Source: Kalmusia sp. IMI 367209
Lineage: Eukaryota > Ascomycota > Dothideomycetes > Pleosporales > Didymosphaeriaceae
DNA length: 64,000 bases
Reading direction: 5' to 3'
Assembly: GCA_027946365.1 (NCBI GenBank)
Contig: JAPEUQ010000005.1
Span: forward strand, 1,798,001 to 1,862,000
This document shows, piece after piece, positions 13,184 through 62,594 of this stretch. Positions within the stretch are counted from its first letter, which is position 1, and every line of letters starts with the position of its first letter. The notes beneath the pieces were generated by a model. That model was not told the DNA's origin and made no database searches. It worked only from the letters and a program-made list of their open reading frames with translations. The position numbers and the translations under genes were made by a program.

Positions 13184-14469
13184 GGGAGTACGCAGTTCAT
13201 AGAAGTGGAGGTGGAGCACTTTGGTATCTTTTTCTTAACAGATTGATTTTTGGCGTTGCATTTGCACGAGCTATAGACGTAGACTTTGCTTTGACTTGCT
13301 AATGTTATTTTTATTGCTTTATGAAAACTCTTTGGGGTTATTTCAAGGATAGTCCATGGATATCGCTATGATACTCATGCACGGTTCAGAAACCTGCTGA
13401 TCTAACTTCCTTCCTTAAGGCTCTTCTGGATGAACCGTCAGCGGTGTACGTTATATATAAGTTATCCCTAACGTGACGCCTTTTCGTCCTATTGGCCTAT
13501 GCAAATACACCAGGAGACCTAAGAAATGTGCAGCCACAGAGCAGCGGGTCGGGCATAGTGCATAACAATGTTTCTCTCATTCTAATAGTCATGTCTAATC
13601 ACATACAAGCCATGTGGCGATCCCCCCTTCTGCATGGCCAAACTCTCGTATTTCTAGTTTACAAGGGCTGAAAAGATTAGGACTCGTCAACGACATTTAC
13701 CTAGCTCGAATGGTCGTGGTGTAACTCCGAAATTCAGAAATATACTGGAATGTGTGATTAGGCAGGGGTTAATAGCTCAGGCGCGAATTGTTGCCGCGAA
13801 TGAATCCGTTCTTAGTATACCCAAGGCTGCCGTGCTCTCAACGTAATGTAAGCTGCAGAGTTGAATGGACGAGATAGAGAAGATGGTTATTTCTTCTTGG
13901 ACATCTAAGGTGCATGAGTTTATGTTGTTTTTCCGTCATAGCGGTTGTTCTTCTACGGGCGGATGCACGCTTTATGTTCATAACAGAAATGATCCTTACC
14001 CACTACGAAACCACTATGAAGCTCATGTAAGGATCGAAATTTCAAGCGCTTAAGTCTAAGCTTAAACATCTATAGCAGTGCCACAGATTGTAATTCATAG
14101 GACCGTAAGGCTGCAAAAAGTGCCCCGTTCAATATTACTACCCTAGTCAATATCTCCAATCCAAGCTCTGACTAGAGAGATTGATGGTCTCCGGTGACAC
14201 AGCTCCGAGAATCCCTCAATACGCTTTATTTTATCCTGGTAATGAATGCACCCCGACCAATCTATGTACCGCTCCTGTGGGCTGGAACAAAGAGTATCTG
14301 GGCTGCTGAGCCACCACTCGTGGTAGCCGAGCCTTGATTGGCATAGGACGCGCGCTACTAATCTGACACAGCCTACTGCTATCCTCGCAGTAAGACTAGC
14401 CTCAACGAGACTTCATCATTTCTACCCCACTTTTTCCTTCTTTGCTTTTCGCGAGAGTCCGACGCGAAG
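13184..14469. other. Intergenic, nothing recognised
   Basis: 1.3 kb without a supported gene. The open frame at 13865-14053 is short and has no recognisable features. Confidence 0.4.
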
Positions 14470-16371
14470 ATGGGGCAAATGTACCTCTATACGCCATTGA
14501 CAGGATCCTTTTCAATCCGCTTGCTTTTGCTTCAGCCCGCAGCGGCACTAGATGAGGCTATTCGCTGCAGCCTTGTGGAAACGCCCCTCGACTCCGCGCT
14601 CGAATACTCAGCCCTCTCGTATACTTGGGATGGTCAGTCTCCTTCCTGCCCTATCGAATGTGATGATGGAGAACTCAACGTCACTCCCAATTGTTGGGCT
14701 GCGCTTCGTAGACTTCGAGACAAACAAGAGCTTCGTAACCTTTGGATTGACGGAATCTGCATCGACCAGACATCGGTACAGGAGCGCAACCAACAAGTGG
14801 CACTTATGGGAGATATATATAAGCGGGCGCAGACGGTCACAGTATGGTTGGGCGAGGGTGATGATGGAGTCGAAAATGCAATAATACAATTGCGCGAGAT
14901 CGGATACCTCCATGATAAAAAGCCTATTAATGAAGAACAACGGAAAGAGATGACTGATGTATTGGCTCTAGTATTCGACTCTCGTCTTTCGTCATCCAAG
15001 GGCATCTTAGAGCCTGTATTTGAGCTCTCTTGGTTTTATCGAATGTGGACTGTTCAAGAGGTGACTTTGCCTAATGTGGAGAGTATCATGGTGCAGTATG
15101 GGTCGATCTCATTTTCATGGTTATATTTACTTTTAGCTATGAATCTTCTCAAAATCACTGAGTTCAAATGGGGGAAATGGAACGAAGCTACTCTGCTCCA
15201 AAGGAGTATTGCTACCTTAATTGTCGAGAAGAGGGACCCGAGTTGGGCAGGACTTTTTGGTGTCGAAAGCTCGGCTACTCAGTCATATCGGTCGCTTCTT
15301 GGATTGCTAGCTGGTATGAGACCTAAGAAAGCTACAGATCCAAGAGATAAAACCTTTGCTCTATATGCTGTGGCAAACGAATTGGGGTTTGCTTTGCCCC
15401 TTCCTGACTACGAAAAGTCGTTAGAGCAGACATATACCGACACTGCAATTGCTTGTATTGAGCAGGACAACAATCCGAAAATCCTATACGAAGCACCTTC
15501 AGACAAGCGTATTCCGGGCCTACCCTCGTGGGTTCCCGACTGGAGCGACGAAGAAGCGATATACACATATTCTGCCGAATATATCAACAAAGGCTTCAAG
15601 GCTGGGGGTGTACATGACGCGCAATGGTCCTTGAAGAATGGTAATCGATTGTTAGCACTTTGGGGAAGCCTTGTTGACTCTATCGACGCTTGCGGTCCCG
15701 TGCTCAAGTTTGACAAAACCTTTCTCGACGGCCGAGAAATGACAGGACGAGGTGGCGGATCACTCGCACCCTTCCAGCAAGAGCTAGCCAATGCTGTCAA
15801 TACGATGAAAGAATGGGTCAATTTGGCGTCGCTATGCAGCAGCTATCCTACAGGAGAACCAGTCGACGATGCTTTGCGGAGTTGTCTCATGGAAGTCGGA
15901 TCGACGTTCGACCCGAACCGACCACACGATGGCTCTTGGGAGACATGGATCCAATTCATGCGAATGAATCATGAACAGTTTTTGGAATCTCTCTCTACCC
16001 GCGCCCATCATGAATCCGGGTATGACAAAACAGGCGAACATTTCAAAGCCGGTAAAACGTTTTCACCTTTTTTGACCTTCCTCGGAATCGCTACCAGCTT
16101 CAAAGACACTTCGGCATGGGAATACAATAACACTGTAATCAAACAAGCAACAGGAAAGTGTTTTTTCCGTACGAAGAATGGGTATTTCGGACTTGCTATA
16201 AGGCCTGTAAACGTAGGAGATGAAATTGTGCTTCTAAAGGGCTTCGAGATTCCTTTCATAGTGAGGAAATTTGGCGAAGAATACGAACTGGTAGCGTATG
16301 GCAGCGTACATGGCATGATGAATGACGAAGTTTGGGAACGGCAAGCAAGCTCTGAGATACTGTTACGTTGA
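14470..16371 (+). CDS. HET-domain (heterokaryon incompatibility) protein
   Basis: A single 633-codon exon. Residues about 45-200 carry the HET domain blocks in order: YSALSYTWD, the LWIDGICIDQ block with QERNQQVALMGDIYKRAQTV, then FYRMWTVQEV. The long C-terminal region is the usual variable arm of such proteins. HET proteins act in non-self recognition between fungal individuals and trigger cell death when an incompatible partner is present. The gene is intact, unlike the NLR-like relic that follows at 18.2-21.9 kb. Partner and allelic specificity cannot be read from one sequence. Confidence 0.93.
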   Translation: MGQMYLYTPLTGSFSIRLLLLQPAAALDEAIRCSLVETPLDSALEYSALSYTWDGQSPSCPIECDDGELNVTPNCWAALRRLRDKQELRNLWIDGICIDQTSVQERNQQVALMGDIYKRAQTVTVWLGEGDDGVENAIIQLREIGYLHDKKPINEEQRKEMTDVLALVFDSRLSSSKGILEPVFELSWFYRMWTVQEVTLPNVESIMVQYGSISFSWLYLLLAMNLLKITEFKWGKWNEATLLQRSIATLIVEKRDPSWAGLFGVESSATQSYRSLLGLLAGMRPKKATDPRDKTFALYAVANELGFALPLPDYEKSLEQTYTDTAIACIEQDNNPKILYEAPSDKRIPGLPSWVPDWSDEEAIYTYSAEYINKGFKAGGVHDAQWSLKNGNRLLALWGSLVDSIDACGPVLKFDKTFLDGREMTGRGGGSLAPFQQELANAVNTMKEWVNLASLCSSYPTGEPVDDALRSCLMEVGSTFDPNRPHDGSWETWIQFMRMNHEQFLESLSTRAHHESGYDKTGEHFKAGKTFSPFLTFLGIATSFKDTSAWEYNNTVIKQATGKCFFRTKNGYFGLAIRPVNVGDEIVLLKGFEIPFIVRKFGEEYELVAYGSVHGMMNDEVWERQASSEILLR

Positions 16372-18229: not shown

Positions 18230-21200
18230 TTAGTCGTCTAATTTCACCGCTTCTCGCTGCCATCCTACTAGAATTTGGTGAGATGCTATGATGTGAGGAT
18301 GTTGGGGTCCAAAGACCACTATTCCTGGCTTGCGGTACTTTTCCATCAAGGAAATTGCTCTCTTTGTAAGCCCCTGGCCTTTGAGCGTAAACGCGAGGCT
18401 AATCATAATAGACAGCGTGTCTGGATGCTCATCTCCAAGCACCCTTTTCCTCATCTCCAACACTTGCACAAATAGCTCTTCAGCCTCCTTCCACCGGCCT
18501 TGATACCTGTACGTCGACGCTAGGTTTGCCATACTAGATAGCGTAGAATGATGCTCGTCCCCAAGTACCCTCTTAAAAGTCTCCATTACTTGTATCTCCA
18601 GCTCTTCGGCCTCCTTCCACCGGCCTTGATACCTATACGTCGCCGCTAGGTTAGCTATGTTATTTAACGTGGAAGGATGATCATTCCCAAGCACCCTTTT
18701 CCTCATCTCTAACACTTGCACAAATAGCTCTTCAGCCTCCTTCCATCGGCCTTGATCCCTGTACGTCGACGCTAGGTTGCCCATGCTAGTTAACGTTGAA
18801 GGATGCTCGTCACCAAGCACCCTCTTGAACGTATCCATTACTTGCACCTCCAGCTCTTCGGCCTCCTTCCACCGGCCTTGACGCCTATAAATCGACGCTA
18901 AATTGCCCATGTTGGTTAACGTGGAAGGATGATCATCCCCAAGCACTCTTTTCCTCATCTCTATCACTTGCACAAATAGCTCTTCAGCCTCCTTCCACCG
19001 GCCTTGATATGCCTGCGTTGACGCTAGGTTGGCCATACTAGTCAGTGTGTCAGGATGCTCATCCCCAAGCACCCTTTTCCTCATCTCCAACACTTGCACC
19101 TCTAGCTCTTCGACCTCCTTCCACCGGCCTTGCTTACTATAAGTCGACGCTAGGTTGCCCATGCTAGTTAACGTTGAAGGATGCTCGTCACCAAGCACCC
19201 TCTTGAACGTCTCCATTACTTGCACTAATAGCTCTTCAGCCTCCTTCCAGCGACCTTGCTGGATATACGTTGAAGCTAGGTTAGCTATGTTAATTAGCGT
19301 GGAATGATGCTCGTTTCCAAGCGCCCTCAAGCTCGTCTCCATCACTTGTACTAACAGCTCTTCGGCCTCCTTCCACCGGCCTTCGTAATAATACACTGTA
19401 CCAACAGTGTACCATACAAACTCCTTCCTGTCGTCTTCTACGTCCAGCCCGTCCAGATACTCTTTCTTCACCGCTAGGATATGCGTAAGTAATTCTCGTC
19501 GAAAATCTGATATCGCCTCGTCTTTAGATAGCTGAACGCATCCTGCTAGGACAGTCATTAGAAGCCAAGATTCCCACGGCTACTACTCTTCGTACTTCTT
19601 CGCTCGCCATTATACCAGTCTATGCATGCTCACACTCTCCCACCTTTCCCCAGTCCGCTGCAGTAGGCTGTATTAAATAAGCACGTCGCAGCCCTGCCAG
19701 TAAAAAAAATCGTCCCACCCGTTTTCGTCAGACTTCAGAATATTACTAAGCTATGTCGGGAGTTCTTTAGTGTTTCCGTACAATCTCTGGGCTACAGTAG
19801 ATATGCTCAAGCTCGCCAGACGGAACATCTCATCCTGCACTACAATACCACGAAACCGTAACAGAAGGATAAGCAACAGGCCTGGTCGTAGATGCGCATA
19901 GCGCTGCTCAATCCTTTCAAGTGTCTTATCCCAGACTGTCCATACCGTCTCATCGCTCGCTGACAAATCGCAGAAGCGATCGTCCTGTAGTAGATAGTCT
20001 CAATGGTTCTCATAGTCTACAAGGTACCGCCATAAGGCTCATATCGGGTCTCTATTATTGCTGATGTACGCTCCGGCGAGGTCAATGGCAAGAGCTAGAT
20101 ACCCAAGCTCTCTTGCAATCTTGTCGCAACCTTCAAGGACATCTTCTATGGCGACGTCGACGTCTAGCTTGAGGTGTTTCAATAATAGCGTCTTCGCTTC
20201 TAACGGTTCCATAATACCCACTTCTATATCCTCGTAGCCTCTCATACGTTTCCACGGGTTACTATTTTGGCTGGTGATGATGATGCTCCCTTGATTGCCT
20301 TCTGGAATCACATCTCAGATTCCCATCTTATCATCATCAGCATTATCAATGACCACGAGCCACCTACCGTCCATCCTCTTTCGATTGCGGAACCATTTTA
20401 GCACTGCCTATATGACGGGAAAATCCCCAAGTTTAGAGGTCAGTACGACTCCCCAGTCCACTAATAGCTGAAGTTCAACTACGCATCGCTGGAAACTGGA
20501 TCGTACAGACTCCTCGTCCCTAGCATCGATCCAGAGGATAGGGTTATATTCGTACTTGTAGTCTTCGATATACTTTCGTGCCAGCTGGGTCTTTCCAGCA
20601 CCACCAAGTCCGTAGATAGCAACAGCATGAGGTACACTAGTTCCCTGATGATGCACACTCAGCTTCTCTTCGATTGCAGCCGAGAGCGAGTGTCTTTCGA
20701 CAAAGCTTTCGACTATAGTGAAAGGAACAGAGTACATCCAGTGCTGTTTCTGCAAGGCGATGGGTTTGAGTATCTCGAGAAGCGCGCCAAGGATTCTTTT
20801 GTAATTTACGTCTTCTCTTGATTTGTACTTGTTCAGGCCATAGTGGTCGACAGAGAGACCGAAGTTCTCTTTCCCATAAGTCGCCGATTGCTCTTTAACG
20901 CACTATTGATTTTCTTAGTAGTCAACGTATCTACATACTTGCGAATAACGAGGACAAGCCTACAAATTGCTTCCATTGGATGACCCGGAGAACCTTATGC
21001 CTTGTCGGGCGTTGTTCGAAGAAGTTCACTATCCGCAACGTTTTTCTTGTAGTTCTTTCGAAGTCTTTCTGCAAATCTAGTAGAAAATAGGAATCGGAAA
21101 CAAGTTCCTGTAGAAGTAACGGGTTCGATCCAAGCGGCCGTAGCAGCCGAGCAGCGATGCTCCCAAACACGCTGAAGCTTGAACCGCGGTGAGGTGTACC

Positions 21201-24240: not shown

Positions 24241-25260
24241 AGGAGGATGAGCAAGGGGTTTTGTTATATCACTAAGTACCCTATCTGGATCAAAGGGGAA
24301 AAGGCCGGCCTTCGCCCATCCTGCCTGTACGTTCCTAGACGTAAACGCTTAATTCCTTGCAGGGCTATAAGATAGGTAAAGTGCTCCTTCCCTATTGTTC
24401 CTACAGATCTTCGCTCCAGCTGATAAACGTGTTCGCGGTAGGCTACCTTCAGCGGGCTGAATACTGAAACGTCGCAGGGCTAAGTCTTATGGGAGCTGTG
24501 AAGAGGGATACAGCAAGGGATAATGTTATTCTCGAAACTAAACTCCAAAATATCTAGGGTCTTGTGCGTCCCGAAGCAGTTGTATATTAGTACCCATAGT
24601 TTCTGCTTAGCTCGTTCCTTGGTCTGGGGATTAAACACACGCTTAAGCCACTGCAAGCTAAGGTATGAGTCGGTATAACCGCTCACTGAGAGCGCATAAT
24701 GCCATCTAGGGGTATGATACGTAGTCCAATTAGATTGATAAGTTAATACAAGTTAAATTATTATAAGGTTCAGATATCTACCGTTGGCACTCATATATTT
24801 GATAGCAGTTACCATTGTTCGCTTAATGAAGGCACCTCATAGCCTCGCTGATTATCTCTATGAACGGGGATATTTACAGAATTTAGTATGGCAAGCATGA
24901 CACCCGTCTTGTCCATATTATAGACATTTTCCTGTAGAACGGCTGGGCCCTGCAGGACCTCTCTAATCACCTCAAACCACTGTGTGAACTTGTCATAGAT
25001 ATTGTAACGGTTCCAGTCTAGCGCGCTGGCTTTACTTGGGTTGATGTCTGGATAACGTCTATAAAAGGACTGGGGCCAGTTCTTCCTGGGAGGCTTGCTC
25101 GGCCTGTTTGCAAGTCGAGCGAGACTGAAAGCTATCGAGCTCAAACACTTTATTTGGATAGGGCGGCCAAGAGCATCTTGACGTGCTATAAACTTAGCAA
25201 GGGGCTTTCTCTTTGATCGACTGGCGTCCGCGTTTACGATGCTGAAGAGTCGAGGACTGC
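24240..25260 (-). pseudogene. pogo/Fot1-type transposase relic (DDE_1)
   Basis: Minus strand. Pieces in order: KPPRKNWPQSFYRRYPD and WFEVIREVLQG (Tc5/CENP-B-type helix-turn-helix region), NVYNMDKTGVML (first catalytic Asp; the usual DETG has become DKTG, a G to A change), a corrupted central part with indels about 24690-24810, then YTDSYLSLQWLKRVF and GTHKTLDILEFSFENNI (second catalytic region). A TAG replaces the Gln in the conserved LQPCDV segment at about 24480, after which PCDVSVFSPLKVAYREHV and DRVLSDITKPLA follow. Clearly a dead pogo-family transposase. The right inverted repeat lies about 0.5 kb upstream of it. Confidence 0.85.
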
Positions 25261-25898
25261 ACTGCACCGCAACAAAGAGACCACTACAACAAATAGACAA
25301 AAATAGAAACAGTACGTAATCAGAGACACTTCTAGAATTTAAGCTACCATGCGCCACAGCCAGCTAATATATGATACGGACTAATATAGGCTCGTTTATC
25401 ATACTAAGGATCACGCCACGTTGTAAGGCTTTGAGACACCCTATGATTGATTCGGAGATACTCTCGGAATCTTTACTACAAGGCTCAAAAAGCTTAGGCT
25501 CGATCTCATACACTATTATATTAACAGCCTCTCCTCAAGACTCCGTTTTTACGAGGCTCTCCTCTTATCGTGTATTAGTAGGGGTAGTCAGGTAAAGCTT
25601 TAAATTATAGCGTGAATAAAATAATCGATAGTATAACTAAACCTCTAAATATTTCTTCGCTCAGCAGGATCTCAGTAGAGAACGTATAAAAGATTATAAG
25701 TCGTGAATTATACTTTTACTAGCCCACAAGGGGTCCTTCTAGGGGGTCGGATATTGAAATCTGGCTCGCTACATAGGGTGGCTCGTGATACAGGGAACGA
25801 CATTAATTACTTTCTTTTCCTTACAGCGAGAGTCACATCTATCTCATAAGCATCCTTGAAATTTGTATTTAGCTGAGAGGTGTCGACAAATTTGGTTC
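25261..25898. other. Transposon end and MFS gene 3' flank
   Basis: AT-rich. It contains the right inverted repeat, which ends 94 bp from the stop codon of the MFS gene. Confidence 0.4.
25759..25805 (-). repeat. Right member of ~47 bp inverted repeat pair (transposon TIR)
   Basis: Reverse complement of 17579-17624 with a few mismatches. It ends in TTA/TAA, consistent with a TA target. It lies at the 5' side of the pogo transposase relic, as expected for its own terminal repeat. Confidence 0.75.
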
Positions 25899-27648
25899 TC
25901 AATGTGTATTCCGTAATCCGGCATTGTAAGCGAACAAACTAGCTATTATAGCAACACCCGCTATTCCCGTCGAAGCCGCAAACGAATACCTGATACCGTC
26001 GTAGTATATCAATCGTGCTTTTAGCTGGATATCTGGAGGGAGGCTGCGGAGTGCAGTAACCGAATGTCTGATGTTGTCGATGACCTCCGTTCCGTTAGTG
26101 TCTTGAAATCTCAGGATTATGGGGCGAAATAATTTACCTGCTCCTTATTCGGAACCCCAGCGAGAGCATCTGGCAGCCTCCAATTGAGGGTATTTTGGAC
26201 GATAGCTGCGCTGATAGCTACGCCCCAAACAGTGCCCAATGATCTAATGAGGTATACGGTTGATGCAGATACGGCATGGTCTATGATATATCAGCGGATT
26301 ATCATCTTTCTTGCTCAGATCGAGTGCATACCCGAATGGTTGAAAGAAGCTAACGTAGTAAATAGCGTAGCTGGATAAATGATTCCTTGTCCAAGATTGG
26401 CAGGGAAAATATAGACCATGTACTTCCATGTGCTATCGGAAAAGGACAGAGACGTAACTAGACCATTTCCGATAGTCATAAGCAACGCGCCTATTCTGAC
26501 TAGAGTGATCAATTTTCCCCAGCGGGACATCACAATCCCTGCTATGAGGCCGCCGACAGGTGTGGCTAGTGACGGGATTGCGAGCCGAGCACCAGCTTTG
26601 GTAGCAGTATCAAGCAATACGACCTGGAAGAAAAGAGGAAGCATGAACAGATACGCATACGCTGCAGTTCCGGCACAGATGTTAGCAGTCTGGACTGCGA
26701 TCGGGTTCCTTCCACGTAGCTGCCGTAATGGTATTACGGGAATGGCAGTAGTTCGCGACTCGACGCAGATGAAGGCTGCAAGGAGCACAAAACTAATTAC
26801 CAGCGACCCGATGACCCAGCCATTACTCCATGGTAGTTCGTTTCCGCCTAAGCTCAAGCCAACGAGTTGTACTGAAATAGCAGTGACAAGAAGGAGGGCG
26901 CCTAAGAAGTCCACTTTGTCCCGTATCTCTTTCCACGTCGGATGTAACTCAATAGGATTCTTGACAACGATCCAGCCGAGGATGAATGCGATGGCTGAGA
27001 TAGGCACTTGAACAAGGAAGCACCAGCGCCAACCGATCGAGTCGGCAATTGAGCCGCCAAATGATGCGCCACAGATTGATCCAAAGCCGAAGATGCCGTT
27101 CTGTAAAGCTTGATACATTCCGCGCTTTCGGAAAGGTATCATATCCGAATTGACGATTGTAGCTGGATGAGTGCGTTAGTCACGTGTAAACCCTCATGTG
27201 CACGGGTCCTACCCATTGTCATAAGTCCTCCACCTCCAAATCCCGTCAACGCTCGCATCATATTTGCGACGACCATATTGTTCGCGAGACCGCACCCAAG
27301 ACATCCTGCCGCGAATGTGATGGTCGAAACAAAGAAGCACACCCGCCTCCCGAAAATGTCGCTGAACCGGCCATAGAGCGGTTGGAACGCAGTGCTGGTC
27401 ACGAGATAGGATGTTGTCAACCACGACGCGGTATTTGCAGCGTCAAACTCAGAGCTGATGACCGCATACGTCGCCGCCGTAATGGTACTGTCGAAGCCAT
27501 ACAGGAAGACGTTGGCGAAGATGGCTAGCTCGATCCAGAAGAAGCCCCGCGGCGGCTTCCAATTCTCCTCTTCCGGTGGCCTGAGTAATAGAGGCGTGCT
27601 CTCTCCAGGTCCCTGGTCACCGTTCTCGGTGTCACGAGGAGGCGGCAT
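25899..27648 (-). CDS. MFS transporter, 14-TM DHA2/Vba-like
   Basis: Four exons: 27648-27213, 27162-26332, 26280-26138 and 26084-25899, total 531 residues. The last intron uses a CACTAAC branch site 14 nt before its acceptor and restores NKEQVIDNIRHSV. Major facilitator signatures are visible: DSTITAATY in helix 1, GRFSDIFGRRVCF in the 2-3 loop, and GGSIADSIGWRWCFLVQVPI in the motif-C region. An N-terminal acidic, dileucine-like STPLLLR segment could direct it to the vacuole. The family exports drugs or natural products, or moves basic amino acids into vacuoles. It is the first gene left of the precursor-peptide gene and points the same way, so product export is a reasonable but unproven role. 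Confidence 0.9.
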
Positions 27649-28167: not shown

Positions 28168-28608
28168 TTACTCCTCACGCCTATAAATGGTCCTAGAAAA
28201 ACCCTCATCCACCGTAGGAGCACCCTCACGCTTGTAGATGATTTTGGAGAATCCCTCGTCGACAGTGGGGGCATCCTCGCGCTTGTAGATGGTTTTCGAG
28301 AAACCCTCATCCACCGTTGGAGTATTCTCGCGCCTGTAAATGATTTTTGAAAAACCCTCATCCACTGTAGGAGCACCCTCGCGCCTGTAGATGATTTTAG
28401 AAAACCCTTCATCTACAGTAGGAGCAACATCGCGCTTGTAGATTGTCTTGGAAAAACCCTCGTCGATAGTAGGAGCAATGTCCCGCTTTCAGTGACTCTT
28501 GTTAGCTTTGGCTATAAGTCAGATATTCAAACTCACTGTCTCCGGAGTCGGAAGAGCATACGCGTGTACGGCAAGCAAAGCAGGGAGGAGGGTACTGATG
28601 AGCGTCAT
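28168..28608 (-). CDS. Kex2-processed repeat precursor peptide (RiPP precursor)
   Basis: Two exons, 28608-28537 and 28485-28168, with a 51 bp GTGAGT...GCTAAC...AAG intron; 129 residues. The signal peptide is MTLISTLLPALLAVHAYA, with a short LPTPET spacer after it. The rest is six tandem 17-residue repeats and a two-residue tail. Each repeat has the pattern [DE]-x-[AT]-P-T-[IV]-D-E-G-F-S-[KR]-[IT]-I-Y and ends in KR or RR, a Kex2-type dibasic site. Variation sits in the first three residues and in the K/R and I/T positions; the GFS-x-x-IY part is almost fixed, with Phe and Tyr conserved. Secretory cleavage would release six near-identical 15-17-residue peptides. Two UstYa-type genes are adjacent. 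It lacks the Trp/Cys pattern of alpha-pheromone precursors. The final product and its activity are unknown. Confidence 0.85.
28174..28482 (-). repeat. Six 51 bp coding tandem repeats
   Basis: The repeat body of the precursor gene. Units keep frame and differ mostly at third positions and at the variable first codons. Confidence 0.9.
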
Positions 28609-29210
28609 GATTGCAATTGTGGCGCTCTTGCTAACAGCAGATGGAGAGGCGAAGTAGTTGAGATGAAGAGCAATCAAGTCTCATCGTCAACATAGCAAAA
28701 GCAACATCCTTTTATAGGTTGATAAAGCTAGAAAAGGTCCGACAAGGCTCACATTGGATCGCTCGTAGATAATCATCGTAGAGGTATCGGCATTTACCTA
28801 GTATCAACTACCTGGCCGCTTTATCCTGGAATGGAAGGTGCGGATCCTTTTGTAAGGTTGAATGATAATCTGCCCAGACTTCTACAGAGTCAACTGATCG
28901 TTAAGGTCGGGTAGCAACGGCATGCTTACTCTACGAAGGCCCCATACCGCTGTCCCGCCCAGCCAAGAGCGGCCAGGACAATACAGAATCTTGCTTTACG
29001 GCCGTGTCCATAAATGGGGGCCATTTCGACAACACTAATGCTAGTGTAGGATCGCAAGATATTGCGTTATCATATCTGATACCAAGAACAATATCTCTTG
29101 GCAAGGTCGGAGTGGTACGATGCACTATCCTGAGGAAATTCCGCCTTTCACCTTATTATCAAGAAATATTTAGCATTTGTTGTTGCCTCATCCACATTCT
29201 TTTCGGCAAC
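28609..29210. promoter_or_regulatory. Divergent promoter between precursor and UstYa-like gene
   Basis: 602 bp separating two outward-facing start codons. A TATAAAAG box lies at 28716-28709 on the minus strand, about 100 bp before the precursor ATG. A shared region could co-regulate both genes; no cluster-specific regulator is present nearby. Confidence 0.5.
28709..28716 (-). promoter_or_regulatory. TATA box of the precursor gene
   Basis: TATAAAAG on the minus strand, at a plausible distance (about 100 bp) from the precursor start codon. Confidence 0.5.
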
Positions 29211-30183
29211 ATGGACCTATCACTCGGTCAGAAATATTTCTCTGTACGTCAGCAGGATTCTGATGATGCTGCCGACGATGTTGAGAAATTGAACAGGATT
29301 TCAATAGAATCTGATCTTCACGAGAATCCGCATTCCTGCAGCTCGAAGTGGTTACAATATGCACTTTACATACGTTGGACACCTTGGCTATGTGTTCTAT
29401 GTTTGCTCTTCTCGAACTGGTATACATGGACAAGGCTTAAGGCAATCAGAGGAGACGAGGCGATATTCTGTGAGTCAGTCGCAGGTTTTTGTTGCCATCT
29501 ATTTGCATTGACTAAAATATCATTACAGCTCCTGTATCGTCTGTAATAACATACAAGAACGTTGTCTGGACAGCTGGTGTAGAAGAAGACACTACACCTT
29601 ATCAAGGCTGGCCGAACGAAAAAAATGACCTCTTGTGGGAAGAACTCTACAATTGTACGTCAATAGTCGAAGGCTTTGTCATAATTCTGACATTTTTCGA
29701 GTTGGGGTCAGCAAAATACCCATAGACGAGGCTGCTCAATTGACAAACCGAACGACGCCGATACCAGATGATCCAGGCTACTACGTGGTAGCTATAGACG
29801 TATTTCACGAACTGCATTGCCTAGTATGCTACCAAATTTCCACAAATTGCTGCTCTTACTTACGTCATTTCCCATAGAACATGATGCGCAAACGAATCTT
29901 CTGGAACGAGACCCAGGGAGAATTGAACGATATGTACTCCCTGCATCACATGGATCACTGCATCGATTCACTTAGGCAAAGCCTCATGTGCTCTAGCGAT
30001 GTTACCCCCATACCATACGCGTGGTACCCAAAGTACAAGGAGGTTCTACCGACAACTGGGGTGACGCATACATGCCGCGACTTCGATGCGATAAGGAACT
30101 GGGCGAAGGAGCATCGCACTTTCTCAAAGGAGCTAGGAAAGTATTCCAATGACCCACTCGGTAACGTTGTGCATGAGAGTTGA
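29211..30183 (+). CDS. UstYa-family (DUF3328) oxidase-like protein 1
   Basis: Four exons: 29211-29469, 29529-29654, 29702-29823 and 29878-30183, total 270 residues. Each junction restores family consensus: SPVSSVITYK after exon 1, LYNFGVSKIP after exon 2 and HCLNMMRK after exon 3. A single membrane helix (WTPWLCVLCLLFSNWYTW) lies near residues 60-78. The two diagnostic HxxHC motifs are HELHC at 164-168 and HMDHC at 193-197, the second followed by IDSLRQSLMCSSDVTPIP. Members of this family install oxidative cross-links or macrocycles in ribosomal peptides such as ustiloxins and phomopsins, and also occur in other fungal pathways. Adjacent to the precursor gene and divergent from it, it is the likely tailoring enzyme. 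Confidence 0.9.
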
Positions 30184-31086: not shown

Positions 31087-31785
31087 ATGGCGGTCGAACG
31101 GGACTCCGCGCTTTCGACGCTCAACAATGAAGAGAAGTTCAAGGACTTCTCCGACGTAGACTCCGAAGAGCATGAGAACGCCCCATACCTATCGAAGTCA
31201 CGTCCCTACCGAACGCTATTCCTAATTATCTCCGCCGTCGCAGTCGCGATACTCCTCGCTTTCTTCGCCATATCTTGGACGAAATCGTCCCACCTGAAAT
31301 ATGATCAATGCGGCACCAACTCAGATGAAGCCCGCGCACGGGGCTGCGTCTTCGAGACAACTGGCTTCACATGGCTTGCGTCCGAATGCGCCGATCCTGA
31401 TACCGAAACCGAATTTCTCGAATATATCGTAAAGAACGAGTTGAAGCTCTACCGTACCGAGAACTACACGGAGGAAGTCAGCATTGAGGAGGTACGGAAA
31501 GGCAATGGACCGGGCTTCTTCGTACGACAGAAGTATCATCTGACGCATTGCTTGTTCTTGATGAAGAAATTGCATCGCATGCGGGATAAGGGAGCAATGA
31601 TCGATGGCCAGATTATGCCGCTGCATCATACAGAGCATTGCATGGGACAGGTTTTGCATGCGCAGGCTGAGACGGGATTCAGAGAGCATGATATCCAGTT
31701 CTCTTATACAAAATATCCGTACTGCGGGAAGCCAGGAGGGTACAACTTGCTTTGGCCGCAGCAGGGTATGTGGACGGACGAGTAA
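31087..31785 (+). CDS. UstYa-like membrane protein 2 with two HxxHC motifs
   Basis: A single 232-codon exon. Residues about 45-65 (TLFLIISAVAVAILLAFFAIS) form one membrane helix after an acidic cytosolic tail. The lumenal part begins CGTNSDEARARGCVFE. It carries HLTHC at 151-155 and HTEHC at 181-185, spaced as in UstYa/DUF3328 proteins, though the surrounding sequence differs from the classical members and fits the related CGxxxxEARxxGC group often found in fungal clusters. The paired HxxHC motifs suggest metal-dependent oxidation in the secretory pathway; this is inference from the family. Same strand as UstYa-like protein 1 and about 0.9 kb downstream. Confidence 0.8.
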   Translation: MAVERDSALSTLNNEEKFKDFSDVDSEEHENAPYLSKSRPYRTLFLIISAVAVAILLAFFAISWTKSSHLKYDQCGTNSDEARARGCVFETTGFTWLASECADPDTETEFLEYIVKNELKLYRTENYTEEVSIEEVRKGNGPGFFVRQKYHLTHCLFLMKKLHRMRDKGAMIDGQIMPLHHTEHCMGQVLHAQAETGFREHDIQFSYTKYPYCGKPGGYNLLWPQQGMWTDE

Positions 31786-32129
31786 GGTTTTGTGATCCTT
31801 TAAGTGTAAATACTAGGGCGATGTTTAAATTCTATATCCATAAGTTGAAGGTGACATAGCTGTTTTGTATCGGGTTTGCGAGCATAAACGTCATGAGGGG
31901 CACTGGGAAGTGTGAGCACGCCATTGCACGAGCGACTGACGCTTAACCGACCTTTAAAGACGGATACCCCTCTATCCCACTTCATCTCCAAACACGAATA
32001 CTCCACGAGACACGGTCATAAACGCAAAAGAATCTTGGTATAGTTCGAAAACCTTCGCAAGGTCAATGTACCCTTCCTGCAAAATGCTGAACTTAACGCG
32101 TTCTGACCACGGCAGTGCTGTTATCCACC
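31786..32129. other. Intergenic, no gene seen
   Basis: 344 bp spacer and promoter of the next gene. Confidence 0.35.
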
Positions 32130-33849
32130 ATGAAGCACTCTGTCGCTCTGACAACCATATTGCAACTCGTAGCTGCCGACTGGCAGTATAAATCTCGCCC
32201 TGACCTAGCACCTCCACGTCTGAATATCACGATACCTGCTGCCGACAATGTCGAGAAAGGTTATCTATTCGTAGCTCCCTTTGCCGGTTTCCCTGACACT
32301 GCCACCGAGCAGCATGGGCCTCGCCAGGCCGGACCGTACATCTTTCGCGATGACGGTGATCTGATCTGGTCCGGCTACGGGATCTATTCCATATGGGCAA
32401 CCAACTTCCAGGCGGCAAAGTGGAAGGGCAGGGATGTCTTGTTTAGCTTTGAAGGCGATCACAATGCCGGCTACGGCCATGGCCATGGACATACAACGTG
32501 AGCTTTTAGTTCCAGATTGGCGACGTTGACTCACATTTCATCAGAATCCTAGATCAACATTATGAGACCACTCGCGAGCTACGCGCTGGAAATCACAAGT
32601 TGACGGACAAGCACGAGTTCCATGTCGTTAGCGACAATACTGCGGTCATCCAGATTTACCAGCCTACTCCACAAAACTTGACAGCTTATGGCGCGAGCGA
32701 AGAACAGCAATGGATCGTTAATGCCATCTTTCAGGAGCTCGATATCACCACAGGAAAACTACTTGTCGAGTGGGCAAGTCTTGACCATGTGACCCCAGAT
32801 GGTAAGTCCAGCAAGAAATCGCCCTGTCTCATGCCTGCACCTCTTGCTTACCAAATATAGAGGCAATTTTGCCCATCAACCCGGGACAAGCTGGCTCTGG
32901 CTATAACTCATCCGATGCATGGGACTACTTTCATATTAACAGCGTCGACAAGAACTCTGATGGCGACTACATCATTTCAGCTCGCGATGCGTGCTCTGTA
33001 CACAAGATCAATGGCACCGATGGATCTATCATCTGGCGACTTGACGGGAAGAGGTCGTCATTCGCACTCGGGAAGAATGTGACGTTCTGCTTCCAGCATC
33101 ATGCGCGATTTCATCCCCAGCTCAAGTCCGAAGGAGAAGGAAACAATATTGAGTACATCTCCCTTTATGACAACTCCGCCCATGGAACTGAAGATGGGCG
33201 TGGGAAAGAGGTCGCAACTGCGCCTACGAGTAGTGGCAAGATCATCAAGTTGGATACTGAAGCCTAGTCTGCTGAATTAGTCCAAGGCTTCTACCCACCC
33301 GACAGTCTCCGTTCGAAGTCTCAAGGCTCAACCCAACTTCTTCCGAACGGCAACGTCATTGTCAACTGGGGATCTGAGGGCGCATTAACTGAGTATAACT
33401 CTAAGGGTGATGTGCTCTTCCATACATACATGGACTCCGGATACCTCGGTCTTGGTGTCGAGAACTATCGCGGCTTCCGCTACAACTGGACTGGGCTACC
33501 AAATGAAGACCCCGCTATTGTTGCTCTCCAGAATTACGTAGGAACAACAGTCTATGTCTCGTGGAATGGTGACACAGAGACGAGGATTTGGCGATTCTAT
33601 GCTCTCTCTCGCGAGCACGGTAAGAGGAGCTTTCTTGGGGAGGCTTCTCGTAAGAGTTTTGAGACTAGTTTCAAGATACCTAGAAAGGAGGTTCTTCACG
33701 TTGTTGCGGAAGCTGTTGATGCCAACGGGGGGGTATTGAGAACCACTGGCGTAGCGAAGTTGCAGCCAGAGGTCCAGCCTGCGAAGAAAAGTGTGGCGTT
33801 TTCGCCAATGTTTCTGCAGACTGAGAAACAAGCCTGGATGGAACTCTAG
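32130..33849 (+). CDS. Arylsulfotransferase-like secreted protein, interrupted by a stop
   Basis: Three exons, 32130-32497, 32545-32801 and 32861-33849, 537 codons, with an in-frame TAG at 33265-33267. A short hydrophobic start (HSVALTTILQLVAA) suggests secretion. The family match is the fungal Arylsulfotran_2 (ASST) group: PYIFRDDGDLIWSG, GHGHGHTTILDQHYE, AWDYFHINSVDKNSDGDY, SARDACSVHKIN, FQHHARFH and WGSEGALTEYN. The repeated His-containing blades fit a beta-propeller. The TAG sits where a Trp is expected (xxWxAELVQGFYPP), so a TGG to TAG change is the simplest reading; the 194 codons after it are still open and family-like. Either a recent pseudogene, a sequence error, or read-through. It lies directly downstream of the two UstYa-like genes. 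Confidence 0.75.
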
Positions 33850-58831: not shown

Positions 58832-61800
58832 TCAGTTTGATGCGTCTATGCTGACCTCACCAAACCCTTCCGGCGCCTCTGTCATCTCAAACGAAAAGTC
58901 CTCAGCAACTGGTGACAAGTCGACAAAGCTCAAGTCTTCAAAGTGTGCAAATGATCCCAGGGTATCCAGTTGCGTTGTCTGGATAGGAGCAAGTGTAAAA
59001 GGAGAAGCGCGATGGCTGGAAGCAACTCTTGCTGCTGATTTTCGTGTAGGATAGGACCCAGACTTCCAGTCAGGCATCGAGTTGTTGCCTGCGAAGTCGT
59101 CATCGTATGTAGACCTTTGTAGAGTTTCTAGGGGTTCTGCAACCCCTAGCAGACGCGTGGTGAAAGTCATTTCTAGCATCTCCGCAGCTCGTGCTTGCTT
59201 ATGGCGCGAATCTGCCCTGACATGGGCTGCTTGCTCGGTGCGTAGTTTGGCAAAGACAGCTTCAAGATTGGAACCGAACACATCCGAGTTCTCACGCTGG
59301 CGAAGCCAGTGGTTCTCGTCCTTAAGGGCATTGACAAATGTAGCGAAAGTGCGGGAGGCGTTGATACGGGCTTGGGCATCTTCAGGTCGCTCAACGTGGG
59401 GTTGTGGGGTCGGCGGCATGTAAGCAGTGCTCTCGTCCACACCTGGGTGTTTGAGGGTTTCAGACAGGCGCGAAATCTCCGCCTCTTGAGTCTCCGTCTG
59501 TCGCAGGTATGCATCCCGCTCAGCTCGGGCCTTGGATAATTCAGCCTGTAAGGACTCAATAGCATTTGCCTTAACGGTTGCCTCCTGGTTCCGGGCCTTC
59601 AGGTGCTCAATCTCGAGTTCCTTAGTGTCAATGGTCTCCTCCCGTTCGCGCATCTGGAGCAATGCCGACTGAAGCTCGGTAGTCATGAGTTGAAGTTTCT
59701 TGTCAGCATCGATGGCTTGCTTCTTGTTCGCCTCTATCTGCTGAGCCTTGACAATCCATGGGGCCGGTGGAAGTTGTACTTCGACGCAGTTCATCAGCAC
59801 GGAAGCATGGTCGTGCCACTGTCCAATGCGTATCTTGGATTCATTCAAGGATTCCTCAAGGCTATCTGGCAGATCTACTTTGAAAGATTGCACTTGGGCC
59901 GACATGAAGGAGGCATCAAAGCCTTCTGGTTCTTTTGCGAACTTGCCTAAAACGGCGCGGAAGAAGCGTTCTGCGGCTTCTTGCGCTCTGTTGGCAAATT
60001 GGCCTAAAGAGTTGCTATACTCAATGAGGCCATCCACTCCGTCGGGTAAGGCAGGGTAGAGACCGTCTTTCTGCAGTGCGGTCAAGACATTACTGAACTT
60101 AGTGACGACACTGAGAACTTCGGCAGCCATCTTCCCTGGTTCCAACAACGCGTCAAAGGCTGGGCGACCATTTTCTTCCTCGTCAACAAGTTCGATGCGC
60201 GAAATGAATGTCTTGACGGCATCAAAAATTGAACGTATACGATCGAGACTCGCTCGAATGATGGATGCCTGTAAGATCAAGGCGCTGTCAGGGCGTGCAT
60301 TGAACAAGTATCCATTCGTTCGGTATATAGCACCCATAACCATGTAAGATCCCCGTGTGGAGTCTGCAGACTCTTTGAGGTTTAGTGTATCCTGCTTCAA
60401 CGAATTCATGCAGCCCTCGACGGTCCGAAGGACACTCTCGAATTCCTGGAAGAGTCCACCAGCATTGACAAAGTCGTCCAAGGTACAAGATGCTATCGTT
60501 GTCCAGAATTGCTCAGCGTAGGTGTGAATGTAGGTAAGATGGCCGACAATGTCTTGGGACAGGAGAACGTCCAGAAGTTGTTCCGGACCCTGTGTAGTGC
60601 CAAACTTGTCCGTGGTGGTGGTCTTCAGTAGTGAGCCCGCCAATCCAGCCTTGAAGCTAATAGCCTTGCTTCTGAAGTAGGCTTTGATGGATGTGCTATG
60701 GAAATCATTGTACGAAGATTCCGTCAGGTAGTACTTGATCATATCAAGCTCCTCTTGTGCCTCTTCTGCTGCCAACTGCCGCAGCGATGAATCAATATGG
60801 CGAACCGTGTCGTTCAGATCGGCATTTCTGAGACGGCGATGAAGATCCATGACTTCATTAAAGCGGCCAGTGACGTCCTTAACTTCTTCTTCTGTCATAG
60901 CCTTGTCTGCTTCCAACTCTCGGAGTCTAGACTGCAATTCCATAGAAACCTCGCGATGCTTGGAAAGAAGGACCCGGAGTTCAGCATTGTCCTCTTGGGT
61001 CTCATCGCGCTCGCGAGTGACCTCAGCGAGTTGAGAATCCCTAGCCCCAAGCTCTGCTTGCAGCTCGTCCGCGTGTTCCGCGTAGTCATTGATGGTCTCG
61101 TTGCTGACTTCGACGATGGTTGAGAGCTCTCTGCGCTCAAGCTCAAGGCGGGAAATCGACTCTTCTAACGTTTGGTTCTTTTCGATGAGCTCTACGTTCA
61201 TATCTTCCCACTCATTACTTGCGTCCACCTGTTCCCGCAAATCTTCCACCCAAGCCTCAAGCTTGACGACATTTGCGGTCGCTTTGGCAAGTTCGGCCTC
61301 GATATCTTCTGTGTGAGCGACTTGCGCCTCAAGCTCGTGAATGCGTGCGTCCCTCTCTTTGATTTGCTCTCGAGTCATGTCTCGGAGTCTGATGATGCCA
61401 TCCCGATATCGGTCTCGTTCACCCTGTGCCTGCCGAAGCATTGCTGCTTGCTTCTGGTCTTCAGGCATGTCGTCAGTGATGAACGACGCCTCTTCTTGAT
61501 TGATCTCCAGCTCGAGGCGGAGTTCCTCGTTAACAGCCCGTTCGTTCTCCAGCTCAGCTTCAAGCTGTTCCTTCTGTTCTTCAGCCATCTCTCTATCGAT
61601 AGTAGCGAGCTCAACCATAGTGTCGCGTTCCTGGATGGCTTTCGCCTGCTCTTCATTTTCGTGCTTGAGGCGGGTGATGTCGTCCTTGAGACCTGAGACA
61701 TCGTTGTGGTATTGCTGGCACTTCGCTTGCAGTTTGTTGAGAATGCTCTTGACCTTGTCATTCTCGGTGCGCAGCTGCTGGGCTTCTTCTTCAAGCGCCG

Positions 61801-62594
61801 ATGTGTCCGCTTGGATTTTTTGAAGGCGGCGGTATTCGACTTCTGGTATTTGACGAGTGCCGGGCGCAGGTGCTCTGGAGCTTGAAGCGTTGGTGGTGGT
61901 CGGGGCCGCAGAGCGTGTTTCGAGAGAGTTTGCGGAGGAAAGGGATGGCTTTCGAGTAGTACGGACACTACTAGCAGCTGATTGTGCTGAACCTGCAACG
62001 GACAGGCGTTTCGGTTTTACAGGCGAGAGAGCAGACGCCCTCGATGCAGTGGACGTCGGTCGTGTCGTAGTAGACGGTGGGCGTGTAGTGGTAACAGACG
62101 GCGGGCGTGTAGCGGATGACGGGCGTGCTGGTGGTGTTGCAGTTGCTGGTTGCGAAGCCTTTCCAGCGGTGGAGAGTCTAGATGAAGCCGCAGTGCTTTT
62201 AGTAGTCCCAACCGTCGAAAGTCTAGAAGATTGCGAGGTACCCCTCGAGATACCAACGCTTGAAGGCCGAGGTTTTGAGGTGGTTGTGGCCGTCTTTGGC
62301 GCTGCGGCTTTAGGTGCGGCCGGGCGGGCGGCTGCCTTTGGTGCCGGCTGTGAAATGATCTGGGATATGTTCATAGGCCGTGTGAAAAAGACCATGCAGA
62401 GGCTTGCATTGGAAGTAGCGCTCGCCCCTTACCGAACCATCGTTCTTGCCAGAGGGTCCTGGGAGTTCCAGGCCAATATAGTCTCCCTCCTGTCCGGTCG
62501 CGGCGACTTCACCGATGTACCGGACAATGCCGCGATGTGTGGTTCTGCCCTGATCAAGCTTGGCTTCGACCGTCTGGCCGATTTTCAGATCCAT
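58832..62594 (-). CDS. Dynactin p150Glued large subunit, with one-base frame break
   Basis: Minus strand from the ATG at 62594. Residues 1-70 are a CAP-Gly domain (GDYIGLELPGPSGKNDGSVRGERYF; GKNDG at 49-53), which binds microtubule ends. A Ser/Thr/Ala/Pro-rich basic linker follows, then long coiled coils and the dynactin domain (AGLAGSLLKTTTTDKFG...SQDIVGHLTYIHTYAEQFW). The total is about 1250 residues, normal for filamentous fungi. The CAP-Gly frame and the remaining 1187-codon frame are offset by one base. The break is at a run of five T on the coding strand (62385-62389), where four would give HGLFTRP. Dynactin activates dynein in nuclear migration and vesicle transport. An assembly or sequencing slip is the first explanation. 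Confidence 0.9.

Follow-up and report, generated by a model that had tools for sequence, protein, structure and literature searches.

A predicted dikaritin-type RiPP locus in Kalmusia sp. IMI 367209 pairs a six-unit repeat precursor with a divergent UstYa gene

The window analysed here, a stretch of 64,000 nucleotides from the genome of the plant-endophytic fungus Kalmusia sp. IMI 367209, contains a small locus in which a gene for a repeat precursor stands head-to-head with a gene for a UstYa (DUF3328) protein. With a probability that we would put at about 0.85, the precursor is a substrate of this neighbour: Kex2 likely cuts it, and UstYa is predicted to introduce an oxidative cross-link into the released cores, probably from a Phe to the Tyr five residues on. 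The locus is most likely of the dikaritin RiPP type and as simple as that of asperipin-2a, a reading that draws on the UstYa neighbour, a linked second gene, and a sister locus that matches in layout, donor position and core pattern. As judged from these features, it is a further member of a known fungal peptide class, with a core for which our protein search returned no relative. The genome paper gives the organism as 'cf. Kalmusia sp.' among 15 endophytes, with 30 contigs and 42.78 Mb (PMC10027605).

The features of the locus are as follows.

25899..27648, minus strand: MFS transporter gene of several exons, adjoining the precursor gene
28168..28608, minus strand: precursor gene, 129 aa, two exons, splicing predicted
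28168-28485, minus strand: exon 2, carrying the six 17-aa units
28177..28482, minus strand: six tandem 17-aa units with the core PT[VI]DEGFS[KR][TI]IY, each closed by KR or RR
28486..28536, minus strand: predicted 51-bp intron with a GTGAGT donor, a GCTAAC branch-like site and an AAAG end
28537..28608, minus strand: exon 1, hydrophobic leader, signal-peptide-like as judged from hydrophobicity
28609..29210, no strand: 602-bp intergenic region separating the two divergent start codons
29211..30183, plus strand: UstYa (PF11807/DUF3328) gene, predicted exons 29211-29469, 29529-29654, 29726-29823 and 29878-30183
31087..31785, plus strand: single-exon UstYa-like gene encoding a hydrophobic helix and a pair of HxxHC motifs; it reaches 13.3 bits against PF11807, whose cut-off is 25

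Results

A precursor with a conserved core

An earlier note on this DNA had placed a repeat precursor at 28168-28608, with a signal peptide, a 51-bp intron with good splice signals and six repeats of 17 residues, each closed by KR or RR. The coordinates and the minus strand proved correct, and the predicted structure bears out the rest: the frame is interrupted by stops when left unspliced and open when spliced, the exon 1 leader is hydrophobic and signal-like, and all six units lie in register. The spliced product consists, in order, of the leader MTLISTLLPALLAVHAYALPTPET, a single Arg, the units DIAPTIDEGFSKTIYKR, DVAPTVDEGFSKIIYRR, EGAPTVDEGFSKIIYRR, ENTPTVDEGFSKTIYKR, EDAPTVDEGFSKIIYKR and EGAPTVDEGFSRTIYRR, and a final EE. 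Unit 1 is thus preceded by a single Arg (PETR) and not by a dibasic pair.

The 51-nt array has a TRF score of 326 and is the sole direct-repeat family within the 2 kb examined around it. In a scan for dibasic repeats it scores 59.1, compared with a maximum of 5.2 in 100 Markov-randomised 10-kb stretches and of 9.5 in a small control set of five cytochrome P450 stretches. The scan is not specific for precursors, for it gives the window's TPR protein (18233-19579) a score of 159; its matches were therefore judged by eye. The surrounding region, 18233-20902 on the minus strand, is an NLR-like frame pair that matches NB-ARC weakly and includes an array of TPR units built from near-identical 126-bp repeats.

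Nei-Gojobori estimates over all 15 repeat pairs give pN 0.05 and pS 0.74 for columns 4-15 of the unit, and pN 0.32 and pS 0.19 for columns 1-3. The earlier note had pointed out a near-invariant GFS-x-x-IY part and variable first positions. Low pN combined with high pS indicates a coding core under selection: the protein sequence PT[VI]DEGFS[KR][TI]IY is maintained, and the three residues ahead of it vary freely. Such conservation, together with dibasic sites in register in six of the six units, argues against a structural repeat protein or an artefact that yields no peptide product; the UstYa neighbourhood and the sister locus point the same way. That the protein search found no annotated relative would fit such an explanation, which we nevertheless regard as highly improbable.

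The protein search with the precursor covered 6397 candidates, none of which reached E <= 10; since it needs common exact 5-residue words and annotated proteins, it would miss diverged or unannotated precursors. The repeat part searched against its own genome matched only the window's own array. Motifs reported in one KEP survey include EDYXI, DADAATXYV[A/V]D, YVW[G/A][G/S], SPPHKT and QKLKVD (PMC6339444), and the core resembles none of the motifs compared from two KEP surveys (PMC7329392, PMC6339444). The repeat had previously not been recognised as any described product, and a search with the repeat unit had been proposed; within the scope of these searches and motif comparisons, that judgement stands. 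Neither the precursor nor the UstYa query returned a Kalmusia entry, while a dynactin query from the same window (58838-62428) returned the Kalmusia entry N0V90_005941 at 100% identity over 98% of the query. Both genes may therefore be absent from the public annotation of the genome.

UstYa and UstYa-like neighbours

The start codon of the UstYa gene lies 602 bp from that of the precursor gene, in divergent orientation, and the region in between possibly acts as a shared promoter. The spliced UstYa product matches PF11807 with 148.1 bits over profile positions 3-220 of 220 and has an N-terminal hydrophobic stretch and the motifs HELHC and HMDHC; where its second intron begins and ends is uncertain, with 15 in-frame choices listed. 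Among 34 matches to related proteins, the best show 46-47% identity and come from Paraphaeosphaeria minitans, P. sporulosa and Periconia digitata, and both HxxHC motifs are invariant across 20 aligned homologs. A structural model built for a Paraphaeosphaeria homolog (pLDDT 79.8) had no match in the PDB at E <= 0.001, and a sequence search for a solved relative had none at E <= 1. The immediate, divergent UstYa neighbour lends support to the reading of the array as a Kex2-processed RiPP precursor, already favoured in the earlier note, which had overlooked the putative maturation genes: UstYa and the MFS transporter adjoin the precursor, and the UstYa-like gene lies close by.

In the protein encoded by the second gene, the two HxxHC motifs lie at a distance of 30 residues, compared with 32 in P. 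minitans UstYa, but the protein stays below the PF11807 cut-off. The gene has 11 matches in the genome, at six places. All nine of the matches tested, the window's own included, have a PF11807 match no more than 10 kb away. The zone so defined makes up 2.7% of the genome, and none of 20 P450 matches falls within it. This count used nine of the 11 UstYa-like matches (the two omitted are further exons) and 73 of the 102 PF11807 matches (those omitted are mostly further exons of listed genes and the weakest matches); it also took in the first 20 of 104 P450 matches, 21 of 37 tyrosinase matches and 5 of 8 ASST matches. A profile comparison between UstYa and the second protein is weak (probability 2%, E 0.021), with both HxxHC motifs aligned in register. 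The single-sequence model of the protein is poor (pLDDT 49.2), and the similarity of its helix and strand order to that of UstYa is, at this confidence, only suggestive. We therefore label the product of 31087-31785 UstYa-like, not UstYa.

Other genes in the window

The adjacent MFS transporter is a putative cluster member, included on the basis of its position. As far as seen, the maturation set thus comprises one UstYa, one UstYa-like partner and this transporter, and is as small as had been suspected. A whole-genome search found no tyrosinase in the window, confirming an earlier remark; the sole match on contig C26 (1466357-1466956) lies outside it. Among the 21 tyrosinase matches used for the linkage count, two lie within 10 kb of UstYa, neither of them in the window. 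The accompanying remark that no methyltransferase is nearby holds for the 36 of 123 stop-to-stop frames of at least 100 codons that were scanned, none of which carries a methyltransferase domain. Within this set of 36 long frames, the closest match to a transcription factor lies at 52.9-54.8 kb.

The ASST gene at 32.1-33.85 kb was considered as a cluster member and rejected: of five ASST loci, only the window's own has a UstYa match within 10 kb. This arylsulfotransferase-like (PF14269) gene (32097-33846, plus strand) has one in-frame TAG just past 33264; the gene may be a pseudogene, or the TAG may lie in an intron or stem from an error in the sequence. A HET-domain (heterokaryon incompatibility) gene is located at 14362-16368 on the plus strand. 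To the left of the locus, a stretch without clear genes contains a weak match to a Tc5-type transposase DNA-binding domain (24812-25363, minus strand, E 0.052), a possible transposon remnant.

A sister locus in the same genome

A second Kalmusia locus, L037 on contig C27, was chosen for the resemblance of its second gene to the window's and is not a random sample.

L037:2690-3330, minus strand: precursor of the sister locus, six cores of the VDQAFVNVAYFG type, with one UstYa gene and one UstYa-like gene next to it

It has the window's three genes in identical order and orientation, with the precursor on the minus strand and UstYa and the second gene on the plus strand. The last exon of its UstYa gene is 56% identical to the window's over 97 residues, and the two parts of its second gene show 54% and 60% identity. 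The leader ends with PTPDT directly before the GTGAGT donor in L037, and with PTPET directly before GTGAGT in the window; the acceptor of the L037 intron is ambiguous, with seven in-frame choices, four of which use a GTGAGT donor. No counterpart of the MFS gene was found in the L037 stretch fetched. At another locus, L012, the three-gene layout is also present, with a core unrelated to the window's.

The L037 precursor carries six cores of the SVDQAFVNVAYFG type. Compared with TVDEGFSKIIY of the window, they keep V-D-[EQ]-[GA]-F-x4-Y (VDQAFxxxxY and VDEGFxxxxY, respectively). A unit similarity of this size was equalled in 85 of 20000 shuffles and appears modest when taken alone, but it is joined to the common gene structure of the two loci. 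Both precursors retain F and Y in every one of their six repeats, with variable residues in between.

These observations bear on the idea that the product is a linear secreted KEP peptide, a signal or an effector, cut by Kex2 and left unmodified, with UstYa serving something else. Peptides of this kind are common, as 78% of the KEP genes in the published survey have no DUF3328 gene nearby (PMC7329392), and the window's unit is long (15 residues), with a Tyr directly ahead of the dibasic site. However, UstYa is here the divergent next gene, the layout recurs at L037 and L012, and F and Y remain constant in the six repeats of the window and of its sister while the intervening residues change. 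We therefore consider an unmodified linear product unlikely and favour oxidative cross-linking of the core.

UstYa loci and repeat precursors across the genome

The 102 PF11807 matches in the genome correspond to 54 loci after merging the 73 that were used. In eight of 20 UstYa stretches (L012, L014, L018, L020, L021, L025, L027 and L028) we found a dibasic repeat ORF with a score of at least 17, compared with none of the five P450 control stretches, where no score exceeded 9.5. One further stretch, L022, only equals the best control at 9.5, yet has a signal-like exon. The other 11 of the 20 yielded no precursor, even in a looser scan. Since 12 of the 20 UstYa stretches lack a precursor above the control level, UstYa is not always found beside a repeat gene. 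In all 10 tabulated loci, the repeat ORF has a divergent UstYa match 5' of it, at a distance of about 1.0-2.1 kb; L014 has an additional, nearer match on the 3' side. Example cores are TNIYPGIKYLGDED (L014), TPIGQFISIWYGEDGDD (L018), STYAPLWYVGGLKR (L021) and DEDAAKY[GS]KR (L025).

Two UstYa loci elsewhere in the genome (G000:C7:87660-90016 and C28:1915195-1917997) have a tyrosinase match within 2 kb and are candidates for ustiloxin-like chemistry. One of the P450 control stretches holds an ORF (L033:2289-2900, minus strand) that starts in a signal-like manner, contains loosely repeated ANDKR and scores 9.5. It may be a repeat precursor, on a contig (C12) for which no PF11807 match is listed.

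The abundance of such repeat genes beside UstYa also bears on a possible alpha-type mating pheromone precursor. A signal-like leader, repeats and dibasic sites are typical of pheromone precursors too. On the other hand, the pheromone-annotated KEPs in the survey have, with three exceptions, no DUF3328 gene nearby (PMC7329392), whereas in the window UstYa is the next gene, and the genome holds many further repeat genes with such a neighbour. A pheromone role is thus extremely improbable.

A recurrent aromatic-Tyr spacing

The spacing between the conserved F and Y is not confined to the window and its sister. The pattern [FY]-x4-Y is present in seven of 11 precursors (window, L037, L018, L020, L014, L021 and L027) and absent from L012, L022, L025 and L028. 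Shuffling gives an expectation of 0.50, and seven was reached in none of 20000 shuffles, even when any spacing from 1 to 12 was allowed; the test used one hand-chosen unit from each of the 11 precursors (the low-scoring L022 included) and is post hoc, the pattern having been noticed beforehand. Leaving out L037 and L021, which are kin of others, five of nine precursors keep the pattern against 0.37 expected, a number that any spacing reaches in one of 20000 shuffles. An occurrence count that took in nine of the 11 precursors, with L025 and L028 left out, gave 6 in the window, 6 in L037, 3 in L018, 5 in L020, 11 in L014, 2 in L021 and 5 in L027.

The recurrence of [FY]-x4-Y in seven of the 11 precursors suggests a cross-link between residues five apart. 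The published asperipin-2a core, FYYTGY, fits the same pattern (PMC6514808). In the literature consulted we met no prior statement of a five-apart aromatic-Tyr rule, although our search was not designed to exclude one. Tentatively, and with distinctly less confidence than in the locus itself, we propose that [FY]-x4-Y might be a substrate code for many DUF3328 copper cyclases, giving this fungus a library of outwardly dissimilar peptides with one common cross-link span, and that the PF11807-negative double-HxxHC protein might be a dedicated UstYa partner at a subset of loci. If the rule were true, the sequence would reveal the core and the ring span for part of the class.

Discussion

Our results suggest a likely route from gene to product. 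The spliced precursor would enter the secretory pathway, where Kex2 would cut it at the KR and RR sites (the genome has one P_proprotein match), and the basic pairs would then be trimmed off the released cores. UstYa would oxidise the core in a copper-dependent reaction, by analogy with CctR, a DUF3328 protein described as a membrane-associated dinuclear copper enzyme (PMC12435403). The conserved F and Y suggest a Phe-Tyr bond spanning four residues, which would make the product lighter by 2 H. For the 15-mer DVAPTVDEGFSKIIY, the calculated [M+2H]2+ is 827.4221 for the linear form and 826.4143 at -2H; for a trimmed FSKIIY, the calculated [M+H]+ is 770.4447 and 768.4290, respectively. The second double-HxxHC protein might act as a partner of UstYa or as a second tailoring enzyme; a partner role is suggested by ustiloxin, for which ustYa, ustYb and the tyrosinase ustQ are reportedly all required (PMC6514808). 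The MFS protein may export the product, and our default guess for the latter is a secreted metabolite directed against competitors or acting on the plant. The locus is attractive as a compact case: its genes are few, its core is narrowed down by selection between repeats and by the sister locus, and the masses to expect are explicit. Two features deserve to be followed, namely the spacing of aromatic residue and Tyr and the linked UstYa-like partner.

How the locus relates to dikaritins depends in part on the definition. A 2022 review counts only five reported dikaritins (PMC10512285), while the KEP survey lists 1758 repeat precursors that have a DUF3328 gene in the vicinity; such a gene lies near 22% of KEP genes, most often as the next gene (PMC7329392). 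A later definition, as cited in PMC12048977, takes DUF3328 as the class-defining enzyme. The older five-gene definition, cited in the same paper, includes multiple DUF3328 proteins, a tyrosinase and a methyltransferase. The window offers repeated cores between Kex2 sites behind a signal peptide (judged by hydrophobicity), a nearby DUF3328 protein with two HxxHC motifs and an adjacent transporter of predicted role, a transporter or peptidase gene being among the features of the class. In terms of genes, it has the sequence-testable features of a dikaritin under the later definition; it lacks the tyrosinase of the older one, and as to multiple DUF3328 proteins it has one canonical gene and the sub-threshold double-HxxHC gene.

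Among characterised systems, the ustiloxin and phomopsin loci share with the window a Kex2-type repeat precursor, DUF3328 genes and more than one double-HxxHC gene. As described, however, they need a tyrosinase, which the window lacks, and many more genes, and form a bond of the Tyr-Ile type in cores such as YAIG and YVIP, whereas the window has no YxIx core (PMC7329392, PMC9233826). Victorin and the epichloecyclins likewise derive from multi-core precursors of plant-associated ascomycetes and are side-chain cyclised (PMC9233826, PMC6514808); their published descriptions set them apart by other cores and other bonds. At the level of whole repertoires, Venturia inaequalis, also a plant-associated Dothideomycete, is reported to have nine dikaritin clusters, found through DUF3328 together with repeat precursors, and by this description its repertoire is much like that of Kalmusia sp. 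IMI 367209 (PMC9632046).

The asperipin-2a locus of Aspergillus flavus (aprA, aprY, aprT and aprR) resembles the window in combining a transporter with a repeat precursor and just one canonical DUF3328 gene, and its four genes, as reported, include no tyrosinase either (PMC6514808). In its core, as in the window's, F and Y are five residues apart. The two differ in sequence and in unit length, 17 residues in the window and 8 in asperipin-2a. The window has the additional UstYa-like gene, and the scan of its ORFs recognised no isoflavone reductase of the aprR type. In simplicity, the asperipin-2a locus is the closest known counterpart of the locus described here.
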